Assembly (NCBI RefSeq): GCF_900100335.1
Contig: NZ_FNFE01000004.1
Location: 248,001-312,000 of the forward strand
Source of the DNA: Natronorubrum texcoconense
GTDB taxonomy: Archaea; Halobacteriota; Halobacteria; Halobacteriales; Natrialbaceae
Length of the DNA stretch: 64,000 nucleotides
Direction of reading: 5' to 3'
Below are positions 7,718 through 33,447 of this stretch, one piece after another. The notes below the pieces were generated by a model, which had not been told where the DNA came from, made no database searches, and worked only from the letters and a program-made list of their open reading frames with translations. The translations under genes and the position numbers were made by a program. Each line of letters opens with the position of its first letter. The first letter of the stretch is position 1.

Positions 7718-8638
7718 ATGGACGACGCCGAAACCACAGCGAGCGGAAACGGGGCCGAAAACCGCACCGTCGAGGACGTCGATCCCGCAGCGGCGTTCGC
7801 CGCGCTCGGCAACTCGACGCGCGTCGAGATTCTGCAGGCGTTTCGCGAGCACCATCTGGCGAATCCGACGGCGTCGGCGGCCGCGTTCTCGACGCTCCGA
7901 AAGGCCGTCGGGATCAGGGATTCGGGCCAGTTCCGGTACCACCTCGAGCAGCTCCGGGGAACGTTCGTCGAGAAGTGCGACGAGGACTATCGACTCACGT
8001 ACGCCGGCTCGAAGGTGATCGACGCGATCATCGCGGGCACCTACACCGGTCGGACGCGACTCGGCCCGGTTGCCCTCGACAGCGGCTGTAGCCGTTGCGG
8101 GACGGCTGCCCACGCGAGCTACCGAGACGGCATTCTCGAGGTGACCTGCGAGGACGATCACCCGTTGTTTTACTGGTCGGTGCCGCCGAACGCCGCGGTC
8201 GAGGCCTCGCTCGAGGAATTGGTCGAACTGGCGACGACGCTGGCCCTGCAGTCCTATGAACTGGTCGCCGACGGCACCTGTTCGGAGTGTTACTCCGCCG
8301 TCGAGCCGACCATTCGAACCGTCCACAGCGAGGAAGCCGGCGGATCGGTCCGGTTTTCAGCCCGGTGTCGAGCCTGCGCCGCCACCTGGGACGCACCGGT
8401 CGGCTTCGTCCTGCTCGACCATCCCGAGATCGAGTTGCTGTATCACCAGCAGGGGCGACCGATCAGCAGCCAGTACTGGTGGGAGCTCGAGGTCGTCGAT
8501 CGAACCGAGATTACGGTTCTCGAGGAGGACCCGCTCCGCGTTCGGCTGTCGGTCACGATCGGCGAGACGCCCGTCCGGGCGACGGTGGACGAATCGGCTC
8601 GCGTCGTCGGTCTCGACTGTCCGGCGAACATGGACTGA
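7718..8638 (+). CDS. Winged-helix (ArsR-like) transcriptional regulator with zinc ribbons
   Basis: 306 residues. Residues about 25-95 form an ArsR-type winged helix (AAFAALGNSTRVEILQAF; recognition region ending in FRYHLEQL). The middle and C-terminal parts hold CxxC pairs (CSRC, CSEC, CRAC), typical of the haloarchaeal DUF7351-type regulators with zinc-ribbon effector domains. ATG 7718 starts just upstream of the first acidic segment. It probably binds DNA as a dimer; target genes and ligand are unknown. It stands alone, between the hairpin array and a long non-coding leader of the peptidase gene. Confidence 0.85.
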   Translation: MDDAETTASGNGAENRTVEDVDPAAAFAALGNSTRVEILQAFREHHLANPTASAAAFSTLRKAVGIRDSGQFRYHLEQLRGTFVEKCDEDYRLTYAGSKVIDAIIAGTYTGRTRLGPVALDSGCSRCGTAAHASYRDGILEVTCEDDHPLFYWSVPPNAAVEASLEELVELATTLALQSYELVADGTCSECYSAVEPTIRTVHSEEAGGSVRFSARCRACAATWDAPVGFVLLDHPEIELLYHQQGRPISSQYWWELEVVDRTEITVLEEDPLRVRLSVTIGETPVRATVDESARVVGLDCPANMD

Positions 8639-8795
8639 GCTGCGACAACGTGACAGAACTGTCCGTTCGTCGCCGTTCCGATTGTCTACCAACTGGCAGT
8701 GCATCGGCTCGGTACGTACCGACTGGACTGATTGTGGACGGACGCGAGCGGCCTCGAGTCGCTTCGGATCGCCCGCTTGCTTTTGTGATATTTCG

Positions 8796-8803
8796 CTTAT
8801 AGA
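8796..8803 (+). promoter_or_regulatory. Probable TATA box of the M23 peptidase gene
   Basis: The AT-rich element cttataga stands out from GC-rich surroundings, 48 nt before the ATG at 8851. Spacing allows a short leader. No BRE was verified. Confidence 0.35.
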
Positions 8804-8850
8804 AAAACCCTTCGCCAAACGTTGATTCTCTCGGACGCATTCGAGAGCGT

Positions 8851-10008
8851 ATGGCAGTTTCACATCCGATCGGTCCGGGGTCCGAACCCGAGACCGAAAC
8901 CGAGTCGGGGCGACTGGCGGCGATCCGTCGCCGGTTTCCCGATCCGATGTACGTATTCCTGCTGGGTTTTCTCTCGATTCCCGGCTATCTGTTCGAGTCG
9001 CTCGCGGGGCTCCAACTCTTCGCGCTGTTCTTTCTCGCCGGGCTGTGGCCGCTGGTCGTCGCCATCGTCGGGACGGTTCTCGGTCTGGGGAGCGACGACG
9101 ATGCGGACGAGACCGTGCCGACGGATTGGATCGACATGGGTGACCGAGCCACCAACGTCCGCGCGCTCGTCGCGATGCTGGCCCTCCAGTTTCAGCCGAT
9201 CCTCTTCGTTACGGGGGTGTTCCAGATGGGCGGTCACATCCCCATCCTCGCACGCCACCGCGGAAGCCCGCCCTCGCCGTCGACCTTCGAGAGCGACGTC
9301 GACTATCGACTGCCCGTCGAGGGGACGTGGTCCGTCGTCAACGGCAGTCCGGATCGCGACTACTCCCACTCGTGGGGGATCCTTACCCAGCGATACGCCT
9401 ACGACTTCGTGATCACCGACGACGACGGCCGAACGCACGAGGGCGAGCGCGGCCCGCCCGAGGCGTACCACTGCTTCGGCGAACCGATCCTCGCGCCCGC
9501 GGACGGGGTCGTCGCAAGCGTTCGGAACGACCACCGCGATTATCACCGGACCGACGGCTGGATGGATCCCCTCCAGCGGAGCATTCTGGGCAACAACGTC
9601 GTGATCGAACACGCCGACGACGAGTACAGCGTACTGGCTCACTTAGAACGGGGAAGCGTGCAGGTCGAACCGGGCGATCGAGTCGAACGCGGCCAGCGGA
9701 TCGCCCGCTGTGGCAACTCCGGCAACTCGACGGAACCCCACCTCCACTTCCACGTCCAGGATCACCCGAACTTCTTCCTGGGGGCCGGGCTGCCGGTTCG
9801 GTTCCGGGGCGTCGAGACCGACCATCCGCGGACCGGGCCCGAACGCCACGACGAGACGTACGTTCACGCGGGCCAGCGCGTGCGGCACGTCGTCGATCGT
9901 GAGGACGTCGACGGTTGTGAAATCGCCTCCAGCGATGATGTCGTTGGCGAACCCGTCCCCAACACGGTCGGACACTCCGACGCGGAACCCGAGCGCACCG
10001 ACTCCTGA
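8851..10008 (+). CDS. Membrane-anchored M23-family metallopeptidase
   Basis: 385 residues. Residues about 30-75 and 105-130 are hydrophobic (two or three membrane segments), followed by a conserved subfamily region with SHSWG...YAYDF, where the His and Asp of the first M23 zinc motif would lie. The second zinc motif HLHFHV is complete near residue 300, preceded by GNSGNSTEP. The central LytM core (NNVVIEH, YSVLAHL, GDRVERGQ) is intact. Bacterial M23 enzymes cut peptide crosslinks in murein; haloarchaea have none, so the substrate here is probably a surface glycoprotein or unrelated peptide. This is family-based inference. Encoded alone. Confidence 0.85.
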   Translation: MAVSHPIGPGSEPETETESGRLAAIRRRFPDPMYVFLLGFLSIPGYLFESLAGLQLFALFFLAGLWPLVVAIVGTVLGLGSDDDADETVPTDWIDMGDRATNVRALVAMLALQFQPILFVTGVFQMGGHIPILARHRGSPPSPSTFESDVDYRLPVEGTWSVVNGSPDRDYSHSWGILTQRYAYDFVITDDDGRTHEGERGPPEAYHCFGEPILAPADGVVASVRNDHRDYHRTDGWMDPLQRSILGNNVVIEHADDEYSVLAHLERGSVQVEPGDRVERGQRIARCGNSGNSTEPHLHFHVQDHPNFFLGAGLPVRFRGVETDHPRTGPERHDETYVHAGQRVRHVVDREDVDGCEIASSDDVVGEPVPNTVGHSDAEPERTDS

Positions 10009-26266: not shown

Positions 26267-28225
26267 TCACAACTCATTTATTGAAATTTCGTCGCTCCAC
26301 CGCAATTCACCATTCATCAGAACGGGGATATTTTCTAGCTCGAGGAATTCTACGAGTTCTGGTTTTGTTACTGAAAGTGGGCCAAACTTTTTTGGAACCA
26401 GATGGTATGTCTCTACCGACTCAATATATGGATAAAAAACCCCTCCTATATCCATATTGGGGATAGATACATATTCATGTATGTCTATAATTAAATCTCC
26501 GTGTTGTTTGGTTATCGAACACATATTTGGTGCACCATTATTTGGTTGTGCTATTATTGACAATCCATCACCAACAACATGATATTGATGGCCAATTTTG
26601 GTTACTTTTCGTAGAATATCGATAGCACCATACAGTGAGAACCCCTGATTCAACAATCGAGCAATCACGCTTCCTGCGTGAACAGCATCGCTGTTTTGAA
26701 CATCGCTTGATGTAACTACCCCGCCAATACTTCCCGCTTTTATTAACTGAATTCCTTGATTATTCGACTGACACGCATTGAGAAAAAACGATTTTGCGTT
26801 TACTGACTTGAGAGTTGCCACGTTAAGTCGTCCATCTGAACAACGAACGCCATTGCTGTCAATATGTCCTATATAGTGAACAAAATCGCTTTCCCGCACT
26901 AAAACCTTCTTGAGATCCGCTGTGGTGAGTCTGTGATGAACCGTCACATCAATTGGAAAATCATCACGTTCGCTGTAGGCGCTGTAAACACTTGTGAGTT
27001 CGCTATTCATATCTGGGTCATTACAGACAACTTCGATTCTGATCGGTTCCTCTGTTGGTGTTTGAGTAATGCTGTTGGTGTATGCTGATATCGGTGTGGG
27101 ACTCTCGAATTTCGATCCTCCTGTGGAGGACCAAAACTGCTTGATTGTTTGATTTGTCGATTGACTAGTTTTCTCCTGAACGTCAACGATAGAGAGATTA
27201 TTAGCAATGAATGGGAGAAATGGAATGTGTTCTGGAGTGTTCTCTAGTTGTACCTTGAGTCGCCACTCAGGGAGAAATACTTTAGTGAGAGAAAATGGAC
27301 TTTCAAGATATGTCTCAAGTTGTTCGGAGAGCGATTGTTCGTATAATTCTGAAGGATCGAATGGGAGATTTGATTCAATCATCTCTCGCTCGTGAAGGGG
27401 GAGTGGTGTTATCCCCTCAGTCCGTACGATACAATCCAAAAAAAACACATGCTTCAGTAACCGTTCAACTGTTGTCTCAAATTCTTCTTTTGAATCAAGT
27501 GAATAGGAGAAACCGCTATCAGTGATCAACTGGGGTTTCGCTTTAGGAACGACTTTTGCACCGAGGTAGTATGCTAGTGGTGTAATAGTGAATATATGCT
27601 TGAGTGTTGGAGGAACTGCGAGTTTAATATTCGTCTTTGGTCGTTTGATCTCTTCTGGAATGCTTAATTCCTCACCGATTTCAATTGCTGGAGGGTGTCC
27701 ACGTGCTGTCGGAAAAGAACGTTCCGCTGCTGTTGTTTTCAAAGCAGAACCAAACGCTGATATCGCTTTCATTAGATCAGATGGGGCAGTTGTGGTTTCA
27801 ATTGTTCTTGCTGGGCGTGTGTGATATGACCGTGCCCCAATAATCACGTTCGTGTGTTTATCTAGCTCAATATGTGTTTTATTCCTGTCAGAATATATTT
27901 CAACACTACTATCCAGAACAAGGTATACTTTAATAGATGATGATACATCGAGCGTGTGCTTATTTTGGGATAAAACCACCCGCTCATCTGGCTGGACTTC
28001 AGTTGTTATTGATTTATCCTTCCCACGGACGTAGACGGAATTGACCTCTGACAATGAAATCCGGTCCGTTGTGACCTCTACTGCTGCGCCAATTGGGTAG
28101 GCAACTTGATTTTCATCGACAGACTGTGGTGTAACTGGTTCGTGTGTAATAAGACGATCTCGGTACCGCTCGATTGGATCAATGATCTCTATACCATCTT
28201 GGTTCGATTCGAATTTTGGTTTCAT
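26267..28225 (-). CDS. CHAT-domain (caspase-fold) protease, paralogue 1
   Basis: 652 residues, no signal peptide or membrane helix. The C-terminal part (about 395-570) is a CHAT domain: the HYIGHID motif supplies His454 and FFLNACQS supplies Cys485, the expected His-Cys dyad, followed by GSIGGVVTSSDVQ. Residues 1-345 form a conserved N-terminal module (GARSYHTRPA at 130, RGHPPAI at 175, IFTITPLAYYLGA at 211, FFLDC at 261) that aligns without a gap to the second CHAT protein 1 kb away. GC content is far below the neighbouring ribosomal genes, suggesting transfer. Family members act as signal-activated proteases; the partner and substrate here are unknown. Confidence 0.85.
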   Translation of the reverse strand: MKPKFESNQDGIEIIDPIERYRDRLITHEPVTPQSVDENQVAYPIGAAVEVTTDRISLSEVNSVYVRGKDKSITTEVQPDERVVLSQNKHTLDVSSSIKVYLVLDSSVEIYSDRNKTHIELDKHTNVIIGARSYHTRPARTIETTTAPSDLMKAISAFGSALKTTAAERSFPTARGHPPAIEIGEELSIPEEIKRPKTNIKLAVPPTLKHIFTITPLAYYLGAKVVPKAKPQLITDSGFSYSLDSKEEFETTVERLLKHVFFLDCIVRTEGITPLPLHEREMIESNLPFDPSELYEQSLSEQLETYLESPFSLTKVFLPEWRLKVQLENTPEHIPFLPFIANNLSIVDVQEKTSQSTNQTIKQFWSSTGGSKFESPTPISAYTNSITQTPTEEPIRIEVVCNDPDMNSELTSVYSAYSERDDFPIDVTVHHRLTTADLKKVLVRESDFVHYIGHIDSNGVRCSDGRLNVATLKSVNAKSFFLNACQSNNQGIQLIKAGSIGGVVTSSDVQNSDAVHAGSVIARLLNQGFSLYGAIDILRKVTKIGHQYHVVGDGLSIIAQPNNGAPNMCSITKQHGDLIIDIHEYVSIPNMDIGGVFYPYIESVETYHLVPKKFGPLSVTKPELVEFLELENIPVLMNGELRWSDEISINEL

Positions 28226-28402
28226 TGGGAGCGAAGGTTGGACAAGATGTTGCTCATTATCACAACTCCTCTATCAGAGTGGATGGCTAACTATTGAATA
28301 TATGTTATTGCCTTTCAATATGTCTTGTTAGGGACATTGCACCAAATTAACTAATAGTCGATTCTTTCCGGACCACATTTAATAGTATCTGCTCAAGCAG
28401 TA

Positions 28403-28984
28403 TTGATAGAAGCTGTGTTGCTGAAATCTACATCTCAGTTGTTCGTGGTTCATCCTACTCTTTCTCTCAGTAATATGAACGCAGAGCGGGCTCGAGTCGC
28501 TGCTGAAGTCAATATAGTTGACTTCAACCATTCAATTCTTGAACAAATCGATGAACGCTACGATCTGCTCGTTTTGGACTGGAGTCTGCAGACACCAGAT
28601 GCCCGCGGCATCCTTGATGCGTTTCGACAGAATGCTCCGAAGACCCAGATTCTTGTACTCGCTAGTGACGTACCCTCGGATGACCCAGTTGACCGCGGCG
28701 CCGACGAACTTCTCATTGATCCTGTTTCGGACGAGGCATTACAGTTGACGGTTGAACGGTTGCTTCTGCAGAAGGAATATGAGGCTGCGATGGACGAGTT
28801 TTTCAGGTTATCAACCGAGCGTGCATTGCTCGAAAGCGAACTGCAGTCTGGTCTTGATGTCGACGACCAGTACCAATCTGTTGTCTCTAATCTCTACGAT
28901 TATCGCAAGTGGGCAGCCACGATTCGAGACGAACTCTCAAACGATGAGTTCGATCATGTCCTTCGGAAGTTATTTGATGAGTAA
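28403..28984 (+). CDS. HalX-domain protein with degenerate receiver
   Basis: About 193 residues from TTG 28403 (GTG 28415 and ATG 28475 are alternatives). A tttaata element at 28378-28384 suits a leaderless start at the first or second. Residues 10-120 follow the receiver fold with Asp in LLVLDWSL. The acidic pair of the first strand (usually VDDE) is VVHPT, so phosphorylation is doubtful. The C-terminal about 65 residues (ALLESELQ...YDYRKWAATIRDEL) resemble the HalX helical domain of haloarchaeal response regulators. Divergent from CHAT 1 with a 177-bp shared control region. Likely a signalling adaptor; inferred. Confidence 0.7.
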   Translation: MIEAVLLKSTSQLFVVHPTLSLSNMNAERARVAAEVNIVDFNHSILEQIDERYDLLVLDWSLQTPDARGILDAFRQNAPKTQILVLASDVPSDDPVDRGADELLIDPVSDEALQLTVERLLLQKEYEAAMDEFFRLSTERALLESELQSGLDVDDQYQSVVSNLYDYRKWAATIRDELSNDEFDHVLRKLFDE

Positions 28985-29100
28985 AACAGTCCCTGAGTTC
29001 TCCTTTTGCTCGAGATATCGATTCCCTGTATAGCAGATCAGGTGGACGTTACCTTTTCACACAGTTGGCCTATACAATAACACTACTATTTATTTATATG

Positions 29101-29122
29101 ATTTATTAAAATAAATTTATAT
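29101..29122 (+). promoter_or_regulatory. Promoter of the DUF7503 microprotein
   Basis: Inverted repeat atttatt-aa-aataaat is followed by TATA element tttatat (29116-29122), 29-35 nt before the ATG at 29151. Strong AT-rich promoter with leaderless or near-leaderless spacing. Confidence 0.6.
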
Positions 29123-29150
29123 CTGGCCAGCACTACGTCTAAAATGTACC

Positions 29151-29273
29151 ATGGAAGACCTAACCCAATACCTAAAGAATCACCCACGAATGATCGGCGT
29201 CCTGTTCACGATCTCACTAATTCTGTCTCAGGCAGGCACCGTCGCAGCTGGCGGAGTTTACACGGGCCCTTAG
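29151..29273 (+). CDS. DUF7503-family 40-residue membrane microprotein
   Basis: Encodes 40 residues: MEDLTQYLKNHPRM start, a hydrophobic helix at about 14-33, and a short GGVYTGP tail. The pattern (acidic head, YLKxHPRM, helix ending SQAG, alanines, Gly-rich tail) is that of the multicopy haloarchaeal DUF7503 family. It has no known function. SQAGTVAA could be a signal-peptidase site or simply the helix end. Stop codon is 3 nt from the 3' end of the convergent CHAT gene 2. The strong AT-rich promoter just upstream supports expression. Confidence 0.75.
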   Translation: MEDLTQYLKNHPRMIGVLFTISLILSQAGTVAAGGVYTGP

Positions 29274-29276
29274 AGA

Positions 29277-31337
29277 TCATAAATCGTCAATATTGATGCC
29301 TTTGCTCCATTGAACAGACCCGTCTATTATTACAGGAATATCTTCTAGATCAAAAAACTCCTCAATTTGACGTTTCGTAACCTCTATCTTTTCGGTTTCT
29401 CCTGGAGTTAAATAATACTCGTCTGCTGGTTCCACGTATGGCGTAAATAAGCTCCCTTTTCTCACTGAAGATGATTCATATATGTGAACTTTGATGGTGA
29501 ACATATCATCTCTCTGTGATAGCATGCAAACACTTGGAACACCATTTTTTGACTGTGCAATCGTTGTTACTCCATCACCAACTACTCGGTATTGTTCTCC
29601 AACGACACTTTCACCTCTTGCGATGTCTAATGCAGCGTAAAGTGGGAAGCCCTGGTTCAATAAACCTGCAATGGTACTTCCTACACTAATTGCGCCTTTA
29701 TTGACTATATCGTTTAGAGTGACTATGCCACCAATGCTTCCTGCTTCTACTAAATATAGTCCTTGGTCATATGACTGGCATGCATTGAGCAAGAACGCTT
29801 TCACTCCTACTTTAGTTATTTTTGACGCGTCTAATTTCCCATCCAAGCATTGAAATCCATCGTTATCAATATGCCCAATATAATGTAGAAAGTCACTTTC
29901 GCTAGTTAGAATCTCTTGAAACTCTCCGGTTCTAATATCATGGTATAAAGTAACGTCAAATGGGAAGTCTTCCTGTGAATTATACACTTCATTCACTGTC
30001 TCGAGTTCTTCTTGCATGTTTGGATCGTTGCAAATAACTTCTATTTCGATAGGGTCTTCTTTTGGAGATCTGCCAATGTTGTTATAAAATGCAGACAAGG
30101 GTGTTGTGCTTACTATCGTAGATGAATCTTCGCTCTCCCACGATTGTTGCACTATTGACTTATTTGCCGCGATGTGATTATCCTGGTTGTCCTTCTCTAC
30201 TTTTCCACGAACTATACTCATACTGCCTCGTGAAAACTCTTTGATAGCGCTTGTTTGCGCCTCTGACGATGTTTTTCCAACAGTATCATGTATGCTAACT
30301 GGAGATAACCTATTTGCAATAAAAGGAAGGAACTCTATGCTCTCTTCATTCGGTCTGAGCTGTGTTGTGAGTCGCCATTCTGGAAGATGGGGCTTAACCT
30401 TATGAAACGGAATATCAAGGTATGATTTGATTTGGCTTGCAAGTGGTTGATCATACATTTTTTTAATATCAAACCCGATGTCTGATTCGGACAAACTCCG
30501 TTCATGAAGTGGTAATGGTGTAAGCCCTTCTGTTCGGACCACACAATCTAGGAAGAATATTTTTTTGAGTAGCCGTCTTACTTCCGTGTCAAAATGAATA
30601 TCACCCTGCACATCATATGAGTATCCATCTGCGGTTGTTATTTTAGGTTCCTCATTAGGAATTATGTCTGCACCTAAATAATAAGCGAGAGGCGTAATGG
30701 TGAATATGTGATTGAAGTCTGGAGGAATCTCTATTCGGATGCCTGTTTCTGGCTTCTCAAACGAATTTGGTATTTCTAACTCATCGCATAGTTTGATTGC
30801 CGGCGGATGACCCCGTAGTGTTGGATAAGATCGTTCAGCAGTTGTTGTTTTTAGTGCTGATCCGAAAGCAGATACTGCTCGCATTATATCTAGCGGATCT
30901 TTTGTGGTTTTAATCGTATCTGCTGGACGCGTATGATATGATCGAGCACCAATTGTGAGAGGTATCGTGTCTCCAAAAATTACGTGTGTCTGATCGTTAT
31001 CCGCATAAATACTGACCTCCCCATTAAATTGAATGTATATCTTAAGTGGGACCGATATGTCAAGAGTGTATTTTCCCTCTGGCAAGGATATTGGCTCACT
31101 TGGGCTAGCTTCTGCAACCATGGAACCGTCCTGATTGCGAATATAGATGGTTGCATTTGCTGGAAGTGAAATCATTTCAGCTGTAAACTCAACTGCTTTA
31201 TCTACCGGATACTGAAGCTGGTTCGACTCTACTTCTTTAAGTGAAATTGGCTTATGCGTAACGACCCGATGCCGGTGTCTTTCGATTGGGTCTATGATTT
31301 CAAAGCCATTTTTTGTCGGCTCAAATTTCGGTTTCAT
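29277..31337 (-). CDS. CHAT-domain (caspase-fold) protease, paralogue 2
   Basis: 686 residues from ATG 31337, which matches the MKPKFE start of paralogue 1; the frame is open a further 11 codons. His489 (HYIGHID) and Cys520 (LLNACQS) form the predicted CHAT dyad. Residues 1-345 align residue for residue with CHAT 1, with the same landmarks at the same positions. The linker before the CHAT domain is about 36 residues longer. AT-rich coding sequence like its partner. It lies 81 nt downstream of the DUF7504 gene on the same strand, so the two probably share a transcript. Substrate unknown; the DUF7503 microprotein is the nearest non-homologous partner. Confidence 0.85.
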   Translation of the reverse strand: MKPKFEPTKNGFEIIDPIERHRHRVVTHKPISLKEVESNQLQYPVDKAVEFTAEMISLPANATIYIRNQDGSMVAEASPSEPISLPEGKYTLDISVPLKIYIQFNGEVSIYADNDQTHVIFGDTIPLTIGARSYHTRPADTIKTTKDPLDIMRAVSAFGSALKTTTAERSYPTLRGHPPAIKLCDELEIPNSFEKPETGIRIEIPPDFNHIFTITPLAYYLGADIIPNEEPKITTADGYSYDVQGDIHFDTEVRRLLKKIFFLDCVVRTEGLTPLPLHERSLSESDIGFDIKKMYDQPLASQIKSYLDIPFHKVKPHLPEWRLTTQLRPNEESIEFLPFIANRLSPVSIHDTVGKTSSEAQTSAIKEFSRGSMSIVRGKVEKDNQDNHIAANKSIVQQSWESEDSSTIVSTTPLSAFYNNIGRSPKEDPIEIEVICNDPNMQEELETVNEVYNSQEDFPFDVTLYHDIRTGEFQEILTSESDFLHYIGHIDNDGFQCLDGKLDASKITKVGVKAFLLNACQSYDQGLYLVEAGSIGGIVTLNDIVNKGAISVGSTIAGLLNQGFPLYAALDIARGESVVGEQYRVVGDGVTTIAQSKNGVPSVCMLSQRDDMFTIKVHIYESSSVRKGSLFTPYVEPADEYYLTPGETEKIEVTKRQIEEFFDLEDIPVIIDGSVQWSKGINIDDL

Positions 31338-31418
31338 GGGGCAAAGGATGAGCGAAGTAGCTGTTAACAACTAATCGTCGGGCAAGACAATAGATATGGC
31401 TCTCGAGCAACCATAACC

Positions 31419-32144
31419 CTACGACTGATCGATCGAGATCCACCCAGAACTCTGATCGCCGTCGTTGATCGACCACCGTTCCTGAAAGTCGCCGCTCTGT
31501 TCCCGAAGTTCGACGATGATGTCGAACAGTGGTGCCAGCACGGAGACGACATCTGAGTCCCGGTCCATCGGTAGGTGGTAGTGGATCATACCGTCGGCGT
31601 CTCGAGTCCGGCCGTTCGTCAGATGAACGAACTTGAAGACGCGTTCGACACCGTACTCCTCGAGGAGCGGCACCAGCGAATTGATGCCAACGCGGAGTTC
31701 TGCGGGGGCGAGACCGTCCGCTTCTGACTCGAGCGTTTCGATTGCGCTCGAGATAGCGATACCGAGGTCGGCAAGCGCGGTGGTCGTCGTCGGTGATGCC
31801 TCGAGCGACGGGGAGTCGGTCTCCGTCGGATTTGCTCCGACGTCACTCGCGGCGGTGCTGCGGGCCTGTGTGGCATAGCTAACGAGTTTGAGCGTATCGG
31901 ACGTGTTGACGTCCGCGTCGACCAGGTGTGAGACGTCGTGTAAATCGCCGGTGGTCGAAACCAGCACGCGTCGACGTGGCTGGACGGTCGCCTGTCCCAG
32001 CAGTCGTCGACAGACGTTCTGCCGTTGATCAGCTCGAACGGAGCCGACGACGAGAACGCTCGCACCCTCACGTTTCAGTCGGGATAGCGTTTCGGTGAAC
32101 TGCTCGCCGTCCGACCCGCTCCCCCAGTCCTTGCGCGAAAACAT
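31419..32144 (-). CDS. DUF7504 protein, KaiC/GvpD-like with inactive P-loop
   Basis: 241 residues from ATG 32144. The start of the fold (ASVLVVGSVRADQRQNVCRRLLG) is positioned like a RecA/KaiC Walker A strand-loop-helix, but the GxxxxGK(T/S) residues are absent. The C-terminus HYHLPMDRDSDVVSVLAPLFDIIVELR is characteristic of the haloarchaeal DUF7504 (HTR-like) family. Such inactivated KaiC-type proteins are thought to act as signalling hubs. GC content is nearer the chromosome average than the CHAT genes. An acattaaat element (about 32172) at leaderless spacing is the likely promoter for DUF7504-CHAT2. Confidence 0.75.
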   Translation of the reverse strand: MFSRKDWGSGSDGEQFTETLSRLKREGASVLVVGSVRADQRQNVCRRLLGQATVQPRRRVLVSTTGDLHDVSHLVDADVNTSDTLKLVSYATQARSTAASDVGANPTETDSPSLEASPTTTTALADLGIAISSAIETLESEADGLAPAELRVGINSLVPLLEEYGVERVFKFVHLTNGRTRDADGMIHYHLPMDRDSDVVSVLAPLFDIIVELREQSGDFQERWSINDGDQSSGWISIDQS

Positions 32145-32343: not shown

Positions 32344-33267
32344 TTACTCGTCGTCGTCGGAATCGTCTCCGTCGTTGCCGGAACCGTCTCCGTCGCCACC
32401 GGTATCGTTGTTACCGTTGTCACCATCATCACCGTCGTCACCGCTCTCGTTGGTATCGTCATCACCGTTCTCGTTAGTATCGTCGTCACTACTCTCGCCA
32501 TCCGTGATGACTTCGGTGCCGTCTGCGACGGCCTCGAGAACGTACGTCCCAGCGTCGTCCTGCTCGACGGGTTGAACGGCCGCGACGAAGGTTGTTTCTC
32601 CGCCGTCGCGAATCTCGAACCGTTCGTCGAACTGGAGGGGTCCGTCATCGGGTGTGGTTACCGTTGCTGGATCGTCGTTCGTCAGCGTTGCATCGATCTC
32701 GCTGACGTCTAACTGCAGGAGCTCGTACTCGTCGACCGGGAGGTCGCGTTCGTCGATCACTTGCGAGCCGTCCTCGAGAGTTACGAGGTCGACGTCTACG
32801 GCGTCGTCGAACTCGTAGTACGCTCGATCGGCGTTGGTATCGGTTTCCGACTGCTCGTCGTTTTCGTCGTCCTCCGATTCGCTTTCATCGTCGGTCTCGC
32901 CGTCATCGGTTTCGTCTGATTCACTTTCCCCGTTCGTTTCACTGTCATCGTTCTCACCCGCTTCGGTTTCGTCGTCCGTCTCTTCGTCGTCGGTCTCGTC
33001 GGCTTCGTCCCCCGGAGCGGGAACGACCCACAGACCCTGAATCGTCGCGGTGAAGTCGTTGAAGTCGTCGAACGCGTCCGCTCCGGCGGCGAATTCCGTG
33101 GTGAGCGTTCCGACCGGTTCGTCGTCACCGTTCCCGTCGTCCGAATCGTCGGTCTCGTCGCCGAGACACCCCGCGAGACCGATGGCACTCGCGACTGCAA
33201 ACCCACTGGCTGCCTGGAGATACGTTCGCCGATCGATGCCACACGTGCTGTCTGTCGCACCAGTCAT
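32344..33267 (-). CDS. DUF4382 Tat lipoprotein with long acidic low-complexity segments
   Basis: 307 residues from ATG 33267. N-terminus has a twin-arginine signal (DRRTYLQAASGFAVAS) followed by lipobox AGCLG, so the protein is exported folded and lipid-anchored. The FTATIQGLWVVP and later TDxDLVTLEDG-like parts fit DUF4382. Two long stretches of D/E/S/N/G (around residues 85-145 and the last 45) interrupt and end the domain. The family is widespread on prokaryotic surfaces without known function. The C-terminal tract is repetitive and could vary in length by slippage. Confidence 0.82.
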   Translation of the reverse strand: MTGATDSTCGIDRRTYLQAASGFAVASAIGLAGCLGDETDDSDDGNGDDEPVGTLTTEFAAGADAFDDFNDFTATIQGLWVVPAPGDEADETDDEETDDETEAGENDDSETNGESESDETDDGETDDESESEDDENDEQSETDTNADRAYYEFDDAVDVDLVTLEDGSQVIDERDLPVDEYELLQLDVSEIDATLTNDDPATVTTPDDGPLQFDERFEIRDGGETTFVAAVQPVEQDDAGTYVLEAVADGTEVITDGESSDDDTNENGDDDTNESGDDGDDGDNGNNDTGGDGDGSGNDGDDSDDDE

Positions 33268-33447
33268 GATCGACTGACATAGGCGCTGTTCGATATATCT
33301 ACTCGCCGGTCGGTCTCCCAATTTGCGATGCATGCCAAAATAGTGATTCTGGGGAGGGGTTGTAGGTGGACGCTGGAAGATCGCTTTCGAAATCTACTGT
33401 TCGCAAAAAGTGTGAGTGGCGTAGTGGTCAGTGGCAGTCAGCGACGG

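Follow-up and report, generated by a model that had tools for sequence, protein, structure and literature searches.

We analyzed a stretch of 64,000 nucleotides (nt), hereafter the window, from the chromosome of Natronorubrum texcoconense, a member of the Halobacteriales with a genome of 4.64 Mb (contig NZ_FNFE01000004.1, positions 248,001 to 312,000). A sequence-only reading of this DNA had proposed a module of two CHAT proteases (here CHATa and CHATb), a HalX-type receiver protein, a DUF7503 microprotein, and a DUF7504 protein. All five genes were confirmed (Table 1), but the recurring core turned out to be only two of them, a CHAT gene and a convergent gene for a short peptide, with HalX and DUF7504 frequent yet optional. 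Judged from the sequences, the conserved element of the peptide is its C-terminal tail, which ends in Gly-Pro (GP), and not its membrane helix. The pairing points to an undescribed protease-peptide system, and we consider it somewhat probable that the CHAT peptidase has the dedicated GP-tailed peptide as its cognate ligand or substrate.

Pairing of CHAT and DUF7503 genes across the Halobacteriales

Homologs of CHATb were found in 54 of the 61 genomes sampled and DUF7503 in 163 of 195, while among 14 control genomes the sole DUF7503 match was Haloferax volcanii, which was matched by DUF7504 as well. Over loci L001 to L140, the DUF7503 gene was convergent with a CHAT gene in 137 of 138 cases, with a median gap of 3 nt; 134 pairs lay within 100 bp of each other and 16 overlapped. 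All 30 loci fetched via DUF7503 alone also contained CHAT. Because of the recurrence in nearly every case, the pairing is more than chance, and the co-location expected from the sequence-only reading therefore holds for these two genes, but not for a fixed set of five. Counted from the CHAT side, 154 of 167 distinct 3' ends of the main clade had a convergent partner: 139 faced DUF7503, 9 a tandem array described below, and 6 another GP-ending open reading frame (ORF). The other 13 had no such partner, 11 of them being second copies of the CHATa kind located beside a paired CHAT.

The short distance between the stop codons, together with the overlapping pairs, could alternatively mark a cis-acting element, either overlapping transcripts under mutual antisense control or a ribosome stall at GP-stop, with the peptide not acting as a ligand. 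Terminal Gly-Pro does resemble arrest motifs such as that of SecM. We regard this explanation as very improbable, since antisense control would leave the conserved tail unexplained, the spacing from the helix to the end of DUF7503 varies by up to 4 residues, and the internal tandem GP copies of Haloplanus (see below) are under protein-level purifying selection, which a terminal stall would not explain.

Features of the DUF7503 microprotein

The window DUF7503 scored 71.1 bits against a cut-off of 27 (PF24335). The family follows a common plan, in which a variable N terminus is followed by [HN]P[RK]M, a helix of the GxLFTxxLLLSQAG type, [AV]xA, and 7 to 9 variable uncharged residues up to the end, which is Gly-Pro in 103 of 117 sequences. 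In close pairs, the helix part had a ratio of nonsynonymous to synonymous differences (pN/pS) of 0.07 and the tail one of 0.31; the value for the helix part ruled out a spurious ORF, so the microprotein is a real protein. The possibility that the GP ending is a DNA-level element was likewise rejected, as the Gly and Pro codons of the tail vary synonymously, and every one of the four Gly, four Pro, and three stop codons is in use. Tails with alternative ends (such as AIS, TIS, AIR, TID, or TIV) occurred in loci L023, L024, L026, L028, L061, L092, L102, L105, and L107. AT-rich TATA-like elements similar to that of the window preceded DUF7503 in other loci (33 loci compared by eye), and the gene is probably transcribed from a promoter of its own, with a short leader.

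The GP tail is retained when the rest of the peptide is replaced

A second CHAT subfamily (L170 to L199) nearly always adjoined the gene of the regulator TbsP. The microprotein gene convergent with it was unannotated, and its product of about 40 amino acids (aa) was unrelated to DUF7503. In 26 of 30 Natrialbaceae loci this product read MG..(R)LWW..AKR[VI]S[TS]YxGP, with a pN/pS of 0.98 in the middle and 0.38 in the last 10 codons. A GP-ending ORF was convergent with CHAT in 27 of 36 loci of this clade, while in a background of 33,027 ORFs 0.8% ended in GP and 0.14% in YxGP. The peptide of Natrinema gelatinilyticum (L041) had kept ..NGGLFTGP although its helix region was scrambled, as by compensating frameshifts, and in Halococcus a different soluble form ended in ACTYSGP.

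The most extensive replacement was found among 12 Haloplanus genomes. Three species retained DUF7503, with tails such as GNSGAISGP, while in nine genomes (L200, L201, L206 to L211, and L213) the promoter and N terminus of DUF7503 were kept and the helix was replaced by 2 to 14 or more tandem tail units of the [TN]ADGN[SG][GS]GISGP type. In L200, the 13 units were all distinct and saturated in DNA, with a pS of 0.577 and a pN of 0.000. No convincing copy of the repeat was present elsewhere in the two Haloplanus genomes searched. It is the retention of the tail in the TbsP-linked, L041, Halococcus, and Haloplanus forms, despite the change of carrier and, in the TbsP-linked and Haloplanus forms, under selection at the protein level, that identifies the tail as the conserved unit.

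The sequence-only reading had suggested the membrane peptide as an output of the pathway. Accordingly, CHAT could cleave the microprotein and free the membrane peptide as a toxin-like effector: DUF7503 is hydrophobic, the [HN]P[RK]M motif places a basic residue (R or K in 116 of 117) just ahead of the helix, and several clan-CD peptidases cleave after basic residues. Nevertheless, we find such a role quite improbable, because the helix is absent from the nine Haloplanus arrays and from the TbsP-linked and Halococcus forms and is scrambled in L041, whereas the tail persists in all of these. This loss in relatives argues that for DUF7503 the membrane would be a location rather than an output.

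A further explanation is that the microprotein is a prepropeptide from which a GP peptide is released, exported, and sensed, with CHAT as the processing protease or the intracellular receptor, on the model of Rgg-SHP or Rap-Phr. DUF7503 would then consist of a signal peptide and a mature peptide of 7 to 9 aa, whereas cleavage would follow Lys-Arg in the TbsP-linked form and Asp or Pro in the Haloplanus array. Consistent with this, [AV]-x-A follows the hydrophobic stretch of DUF7503 ([AV] in 111 of 117 at position -3; A in 111 and G in 6 of 117 at position -1), the tail is nearly uncharged and less constrained than the helix, most TbsP-linked forms have KR before the tail (K in 17 and R in 18 of 26), and tandem units nearly identical in protein yet divergent in DNA are a usual feature of multicopy peptide precursors. 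Quorum sensing exists in haloarchaea, with neither the signal nor the receptor identified (PMC12240190). On the other hand, the TbsP-linked and Haloplanus forms lack a signal peptide, the helix of DUF7503 is conserved above the norm for signal peptides, no exporter or importer is linked to the loci, and the characterized Haloferax signal, that for disk formation, resists proteinase K and is called a small molecule (PMC12240190). We therefore consider a secreted signal rather unlikely. Where DUF7503 reads AA|GN, every internal Haloplanus unit reads [TN]AD|GN, which may be an Asp site of caspase-like type in place of a signal-peptidase-like site.

The CHAT proteins are predicted clan-CD peptidases

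The sequence-only reading had recognized His-Cys dyads in the motifs HYIGHID and NACQS of both CHAT proteins. The two residues (H489 and C520 in CHATb) were invariant in 20 and in 54 homologs. An AlphaFold2 model of CHATb (predicted local distance difference test score, 83.7) had SAVED-CHAT as its top structural match in Foldseek (3.5e-7), and in VIA it matched a gingipain with a Z score of 18.8 (root mean square deviation [rmsd], 2.7; 234 residues aligned), SAVED-CHAT with 16.7, and separase with 15.8. The fold match spanned model residues ~321 to 628 (Z of 13 to 19 for separase and gingipains). CHATb is thus predicted to have the CHAT/separase/gingipain caspase-hemoglobinase fold, and the active site proposed from the sequence is borne out by the model and the invariant dyad; protease activity itself we infer.

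Neither window CHAT protein was assigned to a Pfam, NCBIfam, or PADLOC family, nor did either match PF12770, the Pfam CHAT family, and we therefore filed them by fold and dyad and not as curated members of PF12770. Weak matches to PF12770 were obtained for 19 of 54 relatives, the best being 7.2e-5 (in a table without the curated cut-off). A profile search found no sequence relatives of CHAT in the PDB at E up to 1. The most hydrophobic window of CHAT reached a Kyte-Doolittle value of only 1.3, and the protein therefore looks cytosolic. No conserved GP-like pseudo-ligand was present within CHAT. As for a viral origin, no CHAT was found in phages and no PHROG for CHAT or DUF7503; DUF7504 had one weak, uncharacterized PHROG match. 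Plasmid-borne copies occurred in 25 records, and 11 of the 12 best matches shown were annotated as hypothetical.

The role in defense considered earlier is weakened by the lack of PADLOC and phage matches and by the neighborhoods, which are those of rps7 and EF-2 or of regulators. PADLOC gave no match among the five window proteins, and the neighbors (rps7, EF-2, TbsP, TrmB, etc.), of which those in other loci were in part scanned with PADLOC, included no linked defense gene and no nucleotide or CRISPR sensor.

HalX and DUF7504, optional partners found at many loci

The window HalX protein matched PF08663 at 3.8e-6 (27.6 bits against a cut-off of 23.2), while its receiver match was just 0.021. 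The acidic pair of the receiver is indeed lost, as noted from the sequence (HPT versus EDE in intact homologs); the phospho-acceptor Asp is nevertheless retained (LDW). Loss of the pair was common to five Natrialbaceae homologs, whereas the Haloferacales orthologs were intact. The window DUF7504 protein scored 198.8 bits against a cut-off of 27 (PF24336). Its fold is that of KaiC/RecA (Z, 16.8; rmsd, 3.2; 185 residues aligned), and no Walker A motif (GxxxxGK[TS]) was present in 31 aligned members. The P-loop-less, KaiC-like character ascribed to it earlier is thereby upheld, and DUF7504 is predicted to be a KaiC-fold pseudo-ATPase and not an ATPase member.

Among 80 CHAT-anchored loci, DUF7504 was near CHAT in 47, nearly always immediately upstream. 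HalX was frequent in Natrialbaceae and Haloferacales, and elsewhere the arrangement varied. In a Haloferax locus (L066, 12351 to 14166), the genes of an intact receiver-HalX protein and of a TrmB-family regulator came after DUF7503. The genome of the window carries a second CHAT-DUF7503-DUF7504 locus, as well as a separate TbsP-linked CHAT. In that second locus (L142, 10811 to 12100, minus strand), DUF7504 is fused to a HalOD1 output domain and adjoins DUF7344 and a KaiC-type (DUF7125) gene.

Proposed mechanism

The core of the system that we favor would be a cytosolic CHAT/separase-type cysteine peptidase together with a short-peptide gene that is convergent and separately promoted. The functional part of the peptide would be its C-terminal 7 to 13 residues ending in Gly-Pro, and occupation of the CHAT protein by this tail would set whether the protease acts. 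DUF7503 would present a single tail copy beside a membrane helix, the TbsP-linked form would carry the tail on a soluble 40-aa carrier, and the Haloplanus array would provide a higher valency or dose. DUF7504 and HalX may serve as lineage-specific regulatory inputs. Direct contact between CHAT and the peptide is assumed here from the gene pairing and the conserved tail, and the peptide may act as an inhibitor, an activator, or a substrate.

Several observations weigh against this reading. About 10 DUF7503 tails have non-GP ends (..AIS, ..TID), and CHATa-type copies, including CHATa of the window, as well as 9 of 36 TbsP-clade loci have no recognizable convergent partner. The correlation between distances of CHAT and of DUF7503 (Mantel r, 0.45) could also stem from shared ancestry, and no CHAT columns clearly tracked the tail type (GP versus I-type), the top positions being variable. 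Finally, if DUF7503 is inserted with its N terminus in and its C terminus out, the tail would be extracellular, and its contact with a cytosolic CHAT would need processing or reimport.

Comparison with known systems

The closest solved folds by Foldseek were those of SAVED-CHAT and Craspase (Csx29/TPR-CHAT; type III CRISPR), which share with the haloarchaeal proteins a His-Cys CHAT domain, an accessory regulatory N-terminal region, and a dedicated protein partner. In contrast to them, the haloarchaeal module is chromosomal and order-wide, no CRISPR genes and no SAVED or TPR domain were found in it, and the partner of CHAT is a convergent GP-tailed microprotein. Separase (with securin) and the gingipains have the clan-CD catalytic fold in common with model residues ~321 to 628, but the N-terminal region of the haloarchaeal CHAT is different and there is no securin-like protein. 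As in Rgg-SHP and Rap-Phr, a short precursor, hydrophobic or soluble, with C-terminal functional residues is encoded beside a cytosolic protein, and some rgg-shp pairs are convergent as well; here, however, the partner is a peptidase and not a DNA-binding or phosphatase receptor, the end is a fixed Gly-Pro, and any signaling is putative. The tandem, near-identical units of Haloplanus, kept at the protein level, are reminiscent of the multicopy precursor of yeast alpha-factor, but the array has no signal peptide, and its processing and secretion would be hypothetical.

The window proteins are members of Pfam families PF24335 (DUF7503) and PF24336 (DUF7504), which carry no function. In the open-access papers searched, we found no mention of either family, of a link to CHAT, or of the importance of the tail, and nothing linking CHAT and haloarchaea or on haloarchaeal peptide pheromones. 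The last nine residues of DUF7503 would define the family better than the helix for which it is named, and convergent GP-ending microproteins escape annotation.

Extracts of H. volcanii have an Asp-specific caspase-like activity inhibited by zVAD-FMK, while gene homologs are said to be lacking (PMC3615174). The module provides a widespread candidate clan-CD peptidase with a dedicated peptide partner in this genetically tractable species, making the questions of caspase-like activity and quorum sensing testable, with CHAT as a candidate only for the source of either. It is possible, though doubtful, that the module constitutes an order-wide haloarchaeal peptide-signaling or licensing system in which GP-ended peptides control a caspase-like peptidase, which would make it the first such gene-encoded archaeal circuit and a candidate source of the caspase-like activity. 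PMC13286277, with reference to Hackley et al. 2024, reports that glucose metabolism in H. volcanii is under the control of TbsP and TrmB, which through it also control motility and the formation of biofilms. The TrmB-family gene adjoining the Haloferax CHAT locus and the TbsP gene adjoining the second CHAT clade are a lead only.

Genomic setting and base composition

The five-gene segment is flanked by rps12-rps7 on one side and by DUF5781-EF-2 on the other. The low GC content noted earlier was confirmed, being 40 to 46% over 26 to 31 kb of the window and 61 to 67% in most of the flanking DNA on both sides. The rps7/DUF5781 site was common to the first 16 loci, which come from the window genome and related Natrialbaceae. 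Loci of low GC were a subset, nearly all from Natrialbaceae and many at this site, with a deficit of up to 16 to 20 points; outside that subset, the GC of CHAT was near that of its flanks. Since the site is shared by the Natrialbaceae loci fetched and only some loci are low in GC, the proposal of a recent horizontal gain is weakened, and the locus is, on this comparison, apparently an old resident of Natrialbaceae rather than a recent arrival.

Table 1. Positions of the module genes and related elements in the window or, where a locus is named, in that locus
Feature	Position	Strand	Description
CHATa	26267..28225	-	Predicted clan-CD (CHAT/separase-like) peptidase, second paralog, 652 aa; downstream neighbor rps7
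Receiver-HalX protein	28403..28984	+	Upstream of DUF7503, same strand; start codon TTG uncertain
AT-rich TATA-like element aaaataaatttatat	29108..29122	+	~30-40 nt upstream of DUF7503 ATG
DUF7503 microprotein	29151..29273	+	40 aa; PF24335, 5.5e-20
DUF7503 C-terminal GP tail GGVYTGP	29250..29270	+	Part kept or amplified in relatives with the rest of the protein replaced
CHATb	29277..31337	-	Predicted peptidase of clan CD (CHAT/separase-like), 686 aa; convergent with DUF7503, the stop codons lying 3 nt apart; coordinates count from ATG (start in ORF list, TTG 31370)
CHATb catalytic codons	His489 29871-29873; Cys520 29778-29780	-	
DUF7504	31419..32144	-	Upstream of CHATb, same strand; PF24336, 1.3e-58
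TbsP-linked CHAT of the window genome	L141 8967-11084	-	Convergent microprotein region about 8170-8970

Adjoining the module in the window (32344 to 33333, minus strand) is an acidic, low-complexity, lipoprotein-like ORF without a Pfam match, rich in Asp and Glu and with a TAT/lipobox-like start.

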